Made by a program: the position numbers and the translations under genes. 5,811 nucleotides of DNA. Origin: Betaproteobacteria bacterium UBA7395 (GTDB lineage Bacteria; Pseudomonadota; Gammaproteobacteria; Burkholderiales; Rhodocyclaceae). The first letter of the stretch is position 1. Each line of letters opens with the position of its first letter. Shown here piece after piece: positions 1-4,073 of the stretch. A model generated the notes under the pieces. It saw only the letters and a list, made by a program, of their open reading frames with translations, did not search any database and was not told the DNA's origin. The stretch lies in NCBI GenBank assembly GCA_002470165.1, contig DKNF01000193.1:631-6441 (forward strand). Direction: 5' to 3'.

Positions 1-366
1 CCAGCGCACCACCACCGGACCGCGGTCGCCCCAGACGGCGAGTGCGGTGGTCTGGTTGATCTCGTCGCGCAGTTCGGCGATGGCATTGAGGCCGAGGCGT
101 ACCCGGTCGAGGCGGTCGAGGGCGACCAGGCCGACGTTGAGCGCGAACGGCCCGAGGTCGTAACGCGAACTCATCGGGTCCTGTTCGACCAGGCCGGCGC
201 GGATCAGGCTGACCAGGTAACGGTGCGCTTTCGACGCCGGCATCCCGGCAGCCGCCGCAATGTCCTTGAGCATCATCGAGCGCTGCCCGTCGACCATGGC
301 CCGCAGGATGCTCATGCCGACCTCCATCGACTGCACGCCGTGCTTGCCGTCAGTATCCTCGCTCAT
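1..366 (-). CDS. IclR-family transcriptional regulator, N-terminal part (3' end outside window)
   Basis: The 122 codons visible begin at the ATG at 366 and stay open to the window edge. Residues about 10-70 form an IclR-type winged helix-turn-helix: [14 protein letters not shown], then [20 protein letters not shown] (recognition helix) and a wing-like [15 protein letters not shown]. From about residue 71 the start of the effector-binding domain is seen ([15 protein letters not shown], then [17 protein letters not shown]). IclR proteins are normally about 250-270 aa and bind small aromatic or organic acids, acting as repressors or activators. The start is supported by GAGGAA (381-376) 9 nt upstream of the ATG. 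The gene is divergent from paaY with a 68-bp gap, so it may control paaY as well as itself. The ligand cannot be told from this fragment; control of an aromatic pathway is a guess from context. Confidence 0.9.
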
Positions 367-375
367 CGCCAAAAA

Positions 376-381
376 TTCCTC
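376..381 (-). promoter_or_regulatory. Ribosome binding site of the IclR-family gene
   Basis: On the minus strand this reads GAGGAA, followed by nine bases and then the ATG at 366. It decides the start chosen for the regulator. Confidence 0.6.
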
Positions 382-389
382 ATTACAAA

Positions 390-400
390 ATAGGTTCTAT
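390..400. promoter_or_regulatory. Small palindrome between iclR-type gene and paaY, possible operator
   Basis: The sequence ATAGGTTCTAT is an inverted repeat (ATAG/CTAT, 3-bp centre). It overlaps the first three bases of the -10 box of the plus-strand promoter and lies 24 bp upstream of the IclR-type start codon. IclR proteins commonly bind short palindromes in the divergent region next to their own gene, so this is a plausible binding site. The match is short and could be chance. Confidence 0.3.
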
Positions 401-403
401 AAT
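398..403 (+). promoter_or_regulatory. -10 box of likely paaY promoter
   Basis: A perfect sigma70 TATAAT lies 31 bp upstream of the chosen paaY ATG (435). The -35 region is weak: TTCCTC at 376-381 with a 16-bp spacer, which also serves as the RBS of the divergent gene. A transcript starting about 409-411 would exclude the in-frame ATG at 405, which supports the start at 435. A weak -35 suggests an activator may be needed. Confidence 0.45.
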
Positions 404-434
404 AATGCACTTCGACAGCCAAGCGACAAGCCCC

Positions 435-1055
435 ATGAACTCCCTGCGCGTCTATGCCATCGACGGCATCACCCCGGTGGTTGATCCGACCGCCTACGTC
501 CATCCCAGCGCCGTCCTGATCGGCGACGTGATCGTTGGTCCGGGCTGTTACGTCGGCCCCTGCGCCAGCCTGCGCGGCGATTTCGGCCGGCTGATCCTGG
601 AACGCGGCGCCAACCTCCAGGACACCTGCGTCATGCACGGTTTTCCCGGCACCGACACGGTGGTCGAGGAAGACGGGCACATCGGCCACGGCGCCGTGCT
701 GCACGGCTGCCGCGTCGGACGCAACGCGCTGGTCGGCATGAACGCGGTGATCATGGACAACGCCGTGATCGGCGCCAACAGCATCGTCGCCGCTTCAAGC
801 TTCATCAAGGCCGGCCAGGAAATTCCCGACGGCGTGCTGGTCGCCGGCCTGCCCGGCCGCGTCGTCCGCCCGCTGAGCGCCGAGGAAATCGCCTGGAAGG
901 GCGAAGGCACGAAAACCTACCAGGACCTGACCCGGCGCTGCCTGGCCACGATGGTCGAAACGGCACCGTTGACTGAGGTCGAAGCCGACCGCCGGCGCAT
1001 CGAGATCGCCGGCGTGATCCCGCTGGTCGACCTGAAGAAGGATTCAGCGGCTTAA
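435..1055 (+). CDS. paaY: PaaY, phenylacetate-pathway hexapeptide-repeat thioesterase
   Basis: This 206-aa left-handed beta-helix protein is of the gamma-carbonic anhydrase/CaiE type. It closely follows E. coli PaaY (about 196 aa) as I recall it: [62 protein letters not shown] and [12 protein letters not shown]. Likely metal ligands are H68 (VMHG), H85 and H90; the 5-residue spacing of the last two matches gamma-carbonic anhydrases. In E. coli PaaY is a thioesterase that clears dead-end CoA adducts arising from ring opening of epoxidised phenylacetyl-CoA. A C-terminal helical extension (about 147-206) is also PaaY-like. The ATG at 435 was chosen over 405 because the protein then aligns with PaaY and because the -10 box overlaps the upstream ATG. 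No strong Shine-Dalgarno is visible. The 3' end overlaps convergent paaX by 12 bp. Confidence 0.93.
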
Positions 1056-1991
1056 GGGATCGTCCTGGCTGAAGCGGTTGGCCAGGGTCGCGTCCTCGAC
1101 CGGCGTGCTGCCGTCGGCCACGCACAGCATGGCATCGAGGTGACGCGACGAGGCCGTCTCCAGGCGCCGGTAGATTTCCTTGCACAGCAGGCGTGCCTGC
1201 TGGCCGGGCCACTGGGCGGGCAACAGGACTTCGGGCAGTTCCGGATCGCGCAGCAGCATGCGCCGGTAGTCGTGGATCAGCAGGATGCGCAGCAGGAAGG
1301 CATCCTGATCGCTCAACACCAGTCGCTGGTCGCGCTGCAGTTCGTCGAGAATCGGCTGGTAGCGAGTGACGAAATGCCCGTAGGCTTCGGCCAGCGCCGG
1401 CAGGTTCCAGGCGCGGCTGACCAGATCGGCGTCGCTGGCCGACATGGCCGACCGCGAATCGGCGGCGAACAGCGGCAACAGGGCTGACAAGGCCGAAGAC
1501 AGGCCCTCGGCAACCAGTGCATCGAGCACCGCCGAGAGTTCAGCGCCCGGGTGCACGAAGCACTCGCTGCCGAGCATGCCGAAGCCCTGCCAGGCGAGCG
1601 CGCTGCGCACCTGTTCGCGGGTCTTCTGGGGCAGTTCGCCGACCTGGAGGATCAGGCGCCAGCGGTGATCCCACAGCGGCGCCCGCGAGGCGTAGATGTG
1701 CCGGGCGGCTTCTTCGAAACGTCGCCGGCCGGCGGCGGTCAGGGCATAATCGGCACGACGGCCGATGGTTTCGGTACACAACCATTCTTCCTTGACCAGG
1801 CGGAAGACCGAAGTCCGGATCAGGCGCTCGTTGAGGTCAAGCGGTTCCAGCAGGCGGATCAGGCTGCCCAGCCAGATCTTGCCGCCACGCGGCAGAATGG
1901 CGTCGCCAAAGACGGTGATGATCAGCGAACCGGCCTGCACCCGGCGTTTCTGCCGGAATGCGCTGAGACGCTGCTGTATTTCACTATTCAC
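1044..1991 (-). CDS. paaX: PaaX, phenylacetyl-CoA-responsive repressor
   Basis: The 315-aa product matches the layout of E. coli PaaX, a GntR-like winged-helix repressor of phenylacetate catabolic operons that is released from DNA by phenylacetyl-CoA. The N-terminal DNA-binding region (about 20-95) includes [37 protein letters not shown] and [17 protein letters not shown]. The central part has [10 protein letters not shown] and LAWQGFGML, and the C-terminal domain carries the family signature [20 protein letters not shown] followed by [11 protein letters not shown] at about 237-267. Translation begins with GTG at 1991; upstream in frame a TGA occurs before any other ATG, and the leader to GSLI has the same length as in E. 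coli. In E. coli paaX and paaY lie in tandem; here they converge and overlap by 12 bp. Autoregulation is likely: a palindrome with the TGATTC core of known PaaX sites covers the start codon. Confidence 0.93.
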
Positions 1992-3000: not shown

Positions 3001-3687
3001 TTACATGCCGAGCGACTTGAGCAGGTCGTCGTGGTCGTTGGCCGGCGCCTGCACGGCGGCCGGTTTGCCGGCGGAGGCAGCCGCCTGAGCGATCAGTTCG
3101 TCGGGGTCGGTCACTTCCTGGGCGTCGAAGTCGAACAGCTTGATGAACTCTGTGCGATCGATCGCCAGTTCGAGGTAGAAGATGTTGTTGCGGCTGGTAT
3201 AAAAGGTGACCCGGCGCGCTTCCGGCTTGTCCAGATTGGTATCGACACTGAGCATGACCTGCTTGCTGAGCACCAGCATCTTCGGCTGATTCTGGGTGAT
3301 GTGGGTCTGCAATTCACGTCCGACCTTGCCGGTGAAATTGCCGACGATCTGGTTCATCAGTTCGCCCATCACGTTACTGACTTCATCGGCCGTGTGCGAA
3401 CTGGCCAACTCATCCTTCGCCATGCCCATGCTCAGGAGATAACTCTCGTAGAGCTCCATCGCCGCCGAGGCGGAGAAGTTGATCACGACCAGGCCGGTGA
3501 AACCACCGTCGAAGAGCACGAAACAGCCGATGTCCGGCTTCAGGCAGGTCTTGCTGATGCGCTGGACCATGCCGGAATAACGGATCTGGCTCTGCGTGGC
3601 GACATTGAGGACATCGGTCACCGAGTTGCACAGGCTCATCAGGATGTCTTCGGTGCCAAAGACGACAGGTTTGTCTTGTTCGATCAT
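3001..3687 (-). CDS. CheX-like (DUF3334-type) protein with CheZ-like C-terminal tail
   Basis: This 228-aa cytoplasmic protein resembles, from memory, the DUF3334 family of Gammaproteobacteria and Betaproteobacteria: TEDILMSLCNSVTDVL near the N-terminus, KTCLKPDIGCFVLFDGGF (46-63) and NQPKMLVLSKQVMLSVDTNL (133-152). Residues about 101-118 (DEVSNVMGELMNQIVGNF) carry the E-x-x-N-x3-G-N pattern (E109, N112, G116, N117) of CheC/CheX/FliY CheY-P phosphatases, where E and N are catalytic. An Ala/Pro-rich linker (about 200-216) leads to the last residues HDDLLKSLGM, close to the E. coli CheZ C-terminal CheY-binding peptide VDDLLDSLGF. No signal peptide or membrane segment is seen. The inferred role is dephosphorylation or sensing of a CheY-like receiver. 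The ATG at 3687 is preferred to 3777 because the upstream 30 residues look non-coding and overlap the divergent gene's promoter region. It is not next to other chemotaxis genes here. Confidence 0.8.
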   Translation of the reverse strand: MIEQDKPVVFGTEDILMSLCNSVTDVLNVATQSQIRYSGMVQRISKTCLKPDIGCFVLFDGGFTGLVVINFSASAAMELYESYLLSMGMAKDELASSHTADEVSNVMGELMNQIVGNFTGKVGRELQTHITQNQPKMLVLSKQVMLSVDTNLDKPEARRVTFYTSRNNIFYLELAIDRTEFIKLFDFDAQEVTDPDELIAQAAASAGKPAAVQAPANDHDDLLKSLGM

Positions 3688-3782: not shown

Positions 3783-4073
3783 GTGCGCGAAATCATCCTG
3801 GAACTGCATCGCGAGGCCCCTGCCAAGCCCGCCGAAGGCCAGCCCTGCAATGGCTGCGGAGTCTGCTGCGCACTCGAAACCTGTCCGCTCGGCCGCTTGC
3901 GCTTCCTGCAACGGCACGGTCCGTGCCCGGCACTGACCTGGTCGGCCGGGGCCGGACGCTATCACTGCGGCCTGCTACTGGCCGCCGGCCCCGACAGCCT
4001 GACCGGCCGGCTCTGCGCCCGCTGGATTTCCGCCGGCAGCGGCTGCGACTGTAGCGCCGAAATTCAGTCCTGA
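3783..4073 (+). CDS. Small CxxCxxCC (YkgJ-type) metal-binding protein
   Basis: The 96-aa product has ten cysteines (22, 25, 28, 29, 34, 48, 62, 78, 88, 90). The core CNGCGVCC fits the CxxCxxCC motif of the YkgJ/UPF0153 family, thought to chelate zinc or an iron-sulfur cluster; the family has no firm function. There is no signal peptide, so it is cytoplasmic. The start is a GTG at 3783: the in-frame codons upstream run into a TGA at 3765 without another start. No Shine-Dalgarno is evident, as often with leaderless or weakly translated genes. It is divergent from the CheX-like gene (95-bp gap) and its 3' end overlaps the convergent ridA by 10 bp. Compared with many family members it is short, but the cysteine pattern is intact. 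Confidence 0.75.
   Translation: MREIILELHREAPAKPAEGQPCNGCGVCCALETCPLGRLRFLQRHGPCPALTWSAGAGRYHCGLLLAAGPDSLTGRLCARWISAGSGCDCSAEIQS

Follow-up and report, generated by a model that had tools for sequence, protein, structure and literature searches.

The DUF3334 gene and its family

We analyzed a 5,811-nucleotide stretch of DNA from Betaproteobacteria bacterium UBA7395 (contig DKNF01000193.1, positions 631 to 6,441 of the forward strand; the whole stretch is here called the window) and a gene within it that encodes a protein of the Pfam family DUF3334 (PF11813). The gene lies on the minus strand, running from window position 3687 to 3001, and its open reading frame (ORF) encodes 228 residues followed by the stop codon. 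The same frame stays open to 3777, and most listed homologues have about 223 to 237 residues. The Pfam match (380.3 bits; cut-off, 25.2 bits) covered profile positions 2 to 226 of 226 and bears out the sequence-only reading, which had placed the protein in a DUF3334-type family; in Pfam the family still stands as one of unknown function. The protein also matched the CheX profile (PF13690) over residues 54 to 130 (36 bits; cut-off, 27 bits). Automatic annotation already labels some DUF3334 relatives "CheY-specific phosphatase CheX" or "CheC," so the CheX half of the protein is not new, and the new part is the C-terminal tail described below. No NCBIfam model matched the 228-residue protein. PDB sequence searches returned no match with the whole protein or with its last 24 residues alone, and a search with an 83-row DUF3334 profile returned only four unrelated names (E values of 0.1 to 0.42). 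The nearest organism-named relative among the matches listed was a protein of Azonexus hydrophilus (93% identity).

Relatives numbered 4391, 4503, and 4393 in three protein searches, the best 120 being listed each time, and the pooled listed relatives amounted to 353 distinct DUF3334 proteins with the query included. Identity filtering of 241 proteins left 83 representatives for alignment (A2), 63 of which made up a second alignment (A4); among the aligned members the lowest identity with the query was 51%. From a species collection we took the best 80 of at least 480 loci. DUF3334 was present in 20 of the 398 sampled genomes of the phylum, the window's genome counted; since these carriers span 9 genera, the cases are not independent. 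Aeromonas copies (L144, L160, and L171) shared 76 to 78% identity with the query, compared with 51 to 66% in carriers outside the query's order, which may point to gene transfer. The relatives P0303, P0350, and L151, whose source labels read eukaryote, Sphingomonas, and Desulfobulbus, perhaps reflect contamination or misbinning.

A predicted CheX-like core

Structure prediction of the single protein with AlphaFold2 gave a CheX-like model for residues 10 to 184 (window 3136 to 3660, minus strand), as the sequence-only reading had anticipated. Structural alignments of this model with CheX, CheC, and FliM chains covered residues ~10 to 183; the match to CheX was far above that to FliM, and the fold was nearer to CheX than to CheC. 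The core of the DUF3334 protein is thereby predicted to have the CheX fold.

The catalytic-type motif ELMNQIVGN occupies residues 109 to 117 (window 3337 to 3363, minus strand), where it had been placed before, and lies on a predicted helix (residues 100 to 126). Residues E109 and N112, which correspond to the CheX-type E and N, were invariant in all 83 aligned representatives. The form E-x-x-N-x3-G-N that had been proposed for the motif held for E109, N112, and the likewise invariant G116 and failed at its last position, residue 117, which is D in 69 of the 83 sequences and N in 11. Across larger sets, GExxNQ was found in 352 of the 353 distinct proteins (query counted), ELMNQ in 121 of 121 proteins, and the E/N motif in 340 of 341 records, a set whose loci had been selected by the same motif. 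Profile-profile comparison placed GELMNQI of DUF3334 opposite GEITNMV of CheX.

The C-terminal tail and the linker

The protein ends with HDDLLKSLGM (residues 219 to 228; window 3004 to 3033, minus strand). The tail is predicted to be helical, at low confidence, over residues 219 to 225. The CheZ structure chain 1kmi_Z ends in QDQVDDLLDSLGF, and the CheZ protein of the window's own genome ends in QEQVDDLLESLGF. The last ten residues of the DUF3334 protein are identical to those of 1kmi_Z at 7 of 10 positions, in register and ungapped, both at the C terminus; the CheZ end from which the likeness had been drawn is right. In all 20 genomes carrying DUF3334, CheZ ends in VDDLL[ESA]SLGF. Conservation of the tail across homologues was likewise upheld: the C terminus [LF][LFMI]xxLG[MILFV] was present in 346 of the 353 distinct proteins (query counted), and 79 of the 80 species-collection loci had an LG ending, the remaining one being SLDM. 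Mean column entropy over the 83 sequences was 0.67 bits in the core (residues 14 to 187), 2.78 bits in the linker (residues 199 to 217), and 0.78 bits in the tail (residues 220 to 228). The tail is thus conserved while the stretch before it drifts. Betaproteobacterial tails are DDLLKSLGM and close variants, and those of the other carrier families are mostly DLLDELGI-like.

We scored C termini with a profile whose 24 CheZ tails came from genomes other than the 20 carriers, using as background 5209 other C termini (six-frame ORFs of at least 100 codons in 100 loci, not all of which are genes). The query scored 19.5 bits, the median of 100 DUF3334 proteins was 15.5 bits, and the best other ORF scored 10.2 bits. 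No background C terminus attained the DUF3334 median, and 6 reached the fifth percentile of the DUF3334 scores. By this sequence measure, the likeness of the DUF3334 tail to that of CheZ is not a matter of chance. When the tail was searched for as a DNA pattern in the 20 carrier genomes, hits fell on CheZ 20 times, on DUF3334 14 times, and in other places 10 times, with 16 hits for a reversed control; the codons of the hits varied between genomes, which indicates that the peptide and not the DNA is what is kept. When the tail pattern was run over 100 genomes of the order, the LGF-stop type, as in CheZ, made up more than half of the rows (judged by eye; the rows were not individually identified). 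All 50 CheZ loci, from 44 genomes, ended in LGF by a motif that itself required F, no locus being missed.

Between core and tail lies a variable, Ala/Pro-rich linker (residues 188 to 218; window 3034 to 3126, minus strand), delimited by entropy and the AlphaFold2 model. The flexible linker expected ahead of the tail is borne out by the entropy given above and by a predicted local distance difference test score below 50 at residues 207 to 217. From the TEF motif to the last nine residues there are 29 to 69 residues, mostly 29 to 43 (324 of the 346 tailed proteins, those in which TEF was found). Amid the variable linker stands a conserved DPDELI (residues 194 to 199; window 3091 to 3108, minus strand), which begins a short predicted helix (residues 195 to 204) and whose D196 and L198 are kept in 82 of the 83 representatives; DPDELI may provide another site of contact. 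With the boundaries used here (~188 to 218), the linker is similar in length to that of E. coli CheZ, for which PMC7750401 gives a linker at 169 to 199, followed by a C-terminal helix.

Genomic context

CheZ was present in all 20 carrier genomes, whereas 152 of the 398 sampled genomes had a CheZ match overall (148 over the cut-off). In many genomes of other classes the match to the CheZ profile was confined to its C-terminal half (roughly positions 107 to 202), a shortened or divergent CheZ type. We read one CheX paralogue in each of 14 carrier genomes (the best-scoring locus where there were more than two matches; the second match of genome G225 was left out), and all 14 ended with the domain and lacked a tail. 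The 14 gammaproteobacterial carriers so read have a tail-less CheX beside CheZ and DUF3334. According to a passage in PMC9321776, F3-class Campylobacterota possibly have CheX beside CheZ, with loss in some Helicobacter, so the occurrence of both in one genome is not in itself unusual.

The window's genome has a gene row CheV-CheV-CheY-CheZ-CheA, in which the two CheV-like genes were recognized by eye. The ordinary CheY encoded in this row (L052, 1663 to 2052) had its best match in the CheY chains of the 2fka group, with 39 of 44 residues identical over the last aligned residues (counted by eye). We take these chains to be Salmonella CheY, and 2fmf and its group presumably hold the CheZ peptide; both assumptions are consistent with a reference title. 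The genome's own CheZ (L052, 2066 to 2905, plus strand) carries an N-terminal extension with the similar stretches DLEALFDSIA and DELQALFDSVA, which resemble short docking motifs.

In four loci of one genus (L077, L078, L080, and L091), a chemoreceptor gene recognized by its motif adjoins the DUF3334 gene and points away from it. The genus is taken to be Shewanella because L010, from the same genome as L080, matches P0123 at 100%. A scan around the gene of the window showed no sigma-70 promoter or terminator. Divergent from the DUF3334 gene, a plus-strand ORF (window 3783 to 4073) encodes 96 residues rich in cysteine and had no Pfam match up to an E value of 1. At window positions 1 to 1991, an IclR-type regulator, a hexapeptide-repeat protein, and a PaaX regulator are adjacent to one another (Pfam); the grouping resembles that of phenylacetate gene clusters.

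Proposed function and alternatives

We propose that the DUF3334 protein is probably a CheX-type phosphatase whose CheZ-like tail likely docks phosphorylated flagellar CheY (CheY-P), speeding its dephosphorylation beside CheZ. The tethered phosphatase of the sequence-only reading is supported to the extent that sequence and a single-chain model allow. The tail would bind CheY on its alpha4-beta5-alpha5 face, which CheZ and FliM also use, and the flexible linker would give the folded part access to the active site of the CheY molecule so bound. There, by analogy with CheX, E109 would pair with the active-site lysine of CheY and N112 would orient the attacking water. Because CheZ uses the same kind of peptide and FliM the same face, both would meet competition for CheY from the DUF3334 protein. 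With somewhat less assurance, we favor a further architecture of CheY-P phosphatase: a CheX catalyst that has acquired a CheZ docking peptide and is retained by hundreds of species of beta- and gammaproteobacteria as a CheZ-competing second brake on the flagellar signal, so that two unrelated enzymes would contend with FliM for one face of CheY.

Several observations weigh against this proposal. The lowest DUF3334 tail scores, the tail-less L091 included, sink into the background; the last tail residue is M, I, or L, with F in only 2 of 321 distinct DUF3334 records; and most members among the best 120 relatives of one search have E where CheZ has S. The strict tail pattern was missing in 6 of the 20 carrier copies (five substitutions of the first D and one tail-less protein) and in 7 of the 353 proteins, one of which ends in SLDM and the others, P0158 and five more, in unrelated ways. 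Some of these unrelated ends are perhaps database frame errors; L021/L091 (genome G290) and P0158 are natural proteins that stop soon after DPD without a tail, and the genome of L021 nevertheless has CheZ. The profile-profile match to CheX was weak (probability, 26.6%; E value, 0.0007), so that the predicted fold and the Pfam match carry most of the case for kinship with CheX. No conserved chemotaxis neighborhood was seen in 20 loci, the neighbors varying by clade and the gene lying outside any chemotaxis operon, and a receptor gene (hairpin motif) was within the flanks of only 7 of 100 loci, four of them from one genus. An upstream sigma-28 promoter, scanned for with a consensus, gave at least 10 of 13 matches in 7 of 100 loci, compared with ~5% expected from shuffled sequences, whose scores were distributed similarly, and was rejected.

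The same tethered build might instead serve another substrate, either the CheV receiver or an additional CheY-like protein, in place of flagellar CheY. With CheZ in every carrier, a further enzyme acting on its substrate would seem redundant; the genome's own che row begins with two CheV-like genes, and the tail rarely ends in F as that of CheZ does. However, the CheZ tail found in these genomes, which serves CheY, is closely similar, and we regard a different receiver as unlikely. The objection from redundancy would also lose its force if the tail docked CheY while the folded part were no working enzyme, so that CheY-P was sequestered from FliM or carried elsewhere. We consider this quite improbable, given that E109 and N112 are kept in 352 of 353 proteins, lie on a helix, and align with the CheX pair, and that the structural match to CheX far exceeds that to FliM.

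About equally improbable, if not slightly more so, is an ordinary CheX-type phosphatase whose tail serves otherwise, by folding onto the core, marking the protein for a protease, or binding a membrane or scaffold. Conservation in the family says that the tail is used and not for what, a few natural members lack it, and its helix is predicted at low confidence. Yet the tail pattern in the carriers falls on CheZ and DUF3334 and elsewhere stays at the level of the control, and the ordinary CheX paralogues read in the same genomes have no tail. If confirmed, a CheX-type phosphatase that docks flagellar CheY-P through its tail would mean a testable role for a family of unknown function with about 4400 relatives per protein search, and would join the catalyst of one CheY-P phosphatase to a docking peptide that belongs to an unrelated one. 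There would also be the question of why another user of CheZ's docking site is kept beside CheZ and, in the 14 gammaproteobacterial carriers, beside a tail-less CheX.

Comparison with known systems

The two parts, a CheX catalyst and a CheZ-type tail, are each known; we found no description of their combination in the open-licence literature, and one may exist elsewhere. A review (PMC6600141) mentions, from unpublished data, that Comamonas testosteroni CNB-1 has one additional gene, CtCNB_4786, which shares low identity with CheZ and is involved in signal quenching. CtCNB_4786 is a possible DUF3334 gene; no Comamonas was among the named relatives listed in one search.

As set out in PMC3035606, CheZ and the CheC/CheX/FliY family both place a Gln or Asn, together with an acidic residue, in the active site of the receiver. 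The DUF3334 protein resembles CheX in its predicted fold, in E-x-x-N on a long helix, and in a Pfam score over the cut-off. Unlike CheX, it is about 70 residues longer than most solved chains (155 to 159 residues) and adds a linker and a CheZ-type tail, which were absent from the 14 CheX paralogues of the carrier genomes. CheC is more distant, with no Pfam match up to an E value of 1 and a fold less near than that of CheX. In some species FliY carries, at its N terminus, a CheY-binding peptide resembling that of FliM. The DUF3334 protein differs in that no FliN-like domain was detected (Pfam, E values up to 1) and its putative docking element is C-terminal, as in CheZ.

On CheY binding, PMC7750401 states that the conserved C-terminal region of E. 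coli CheZ participates in it, and PMC3774744 that CheZ and FliM bind CheY on a common face. With CheZ (PF04344), the DUF3334 protein shares, by sequence, a DDLLxSLG tail at the extreme C terminus after a linker, an arrangement described for CheZ in PMC7750401. It differs from CheZ in its body, which is predicted to have a CheX fold and had no PF04344 match up to an E value of 1, whereas CheZ is a four-helix bundle with D-x-x-x-Q, and in its last residue, which is mostly M, I, or L where CheZ has F.
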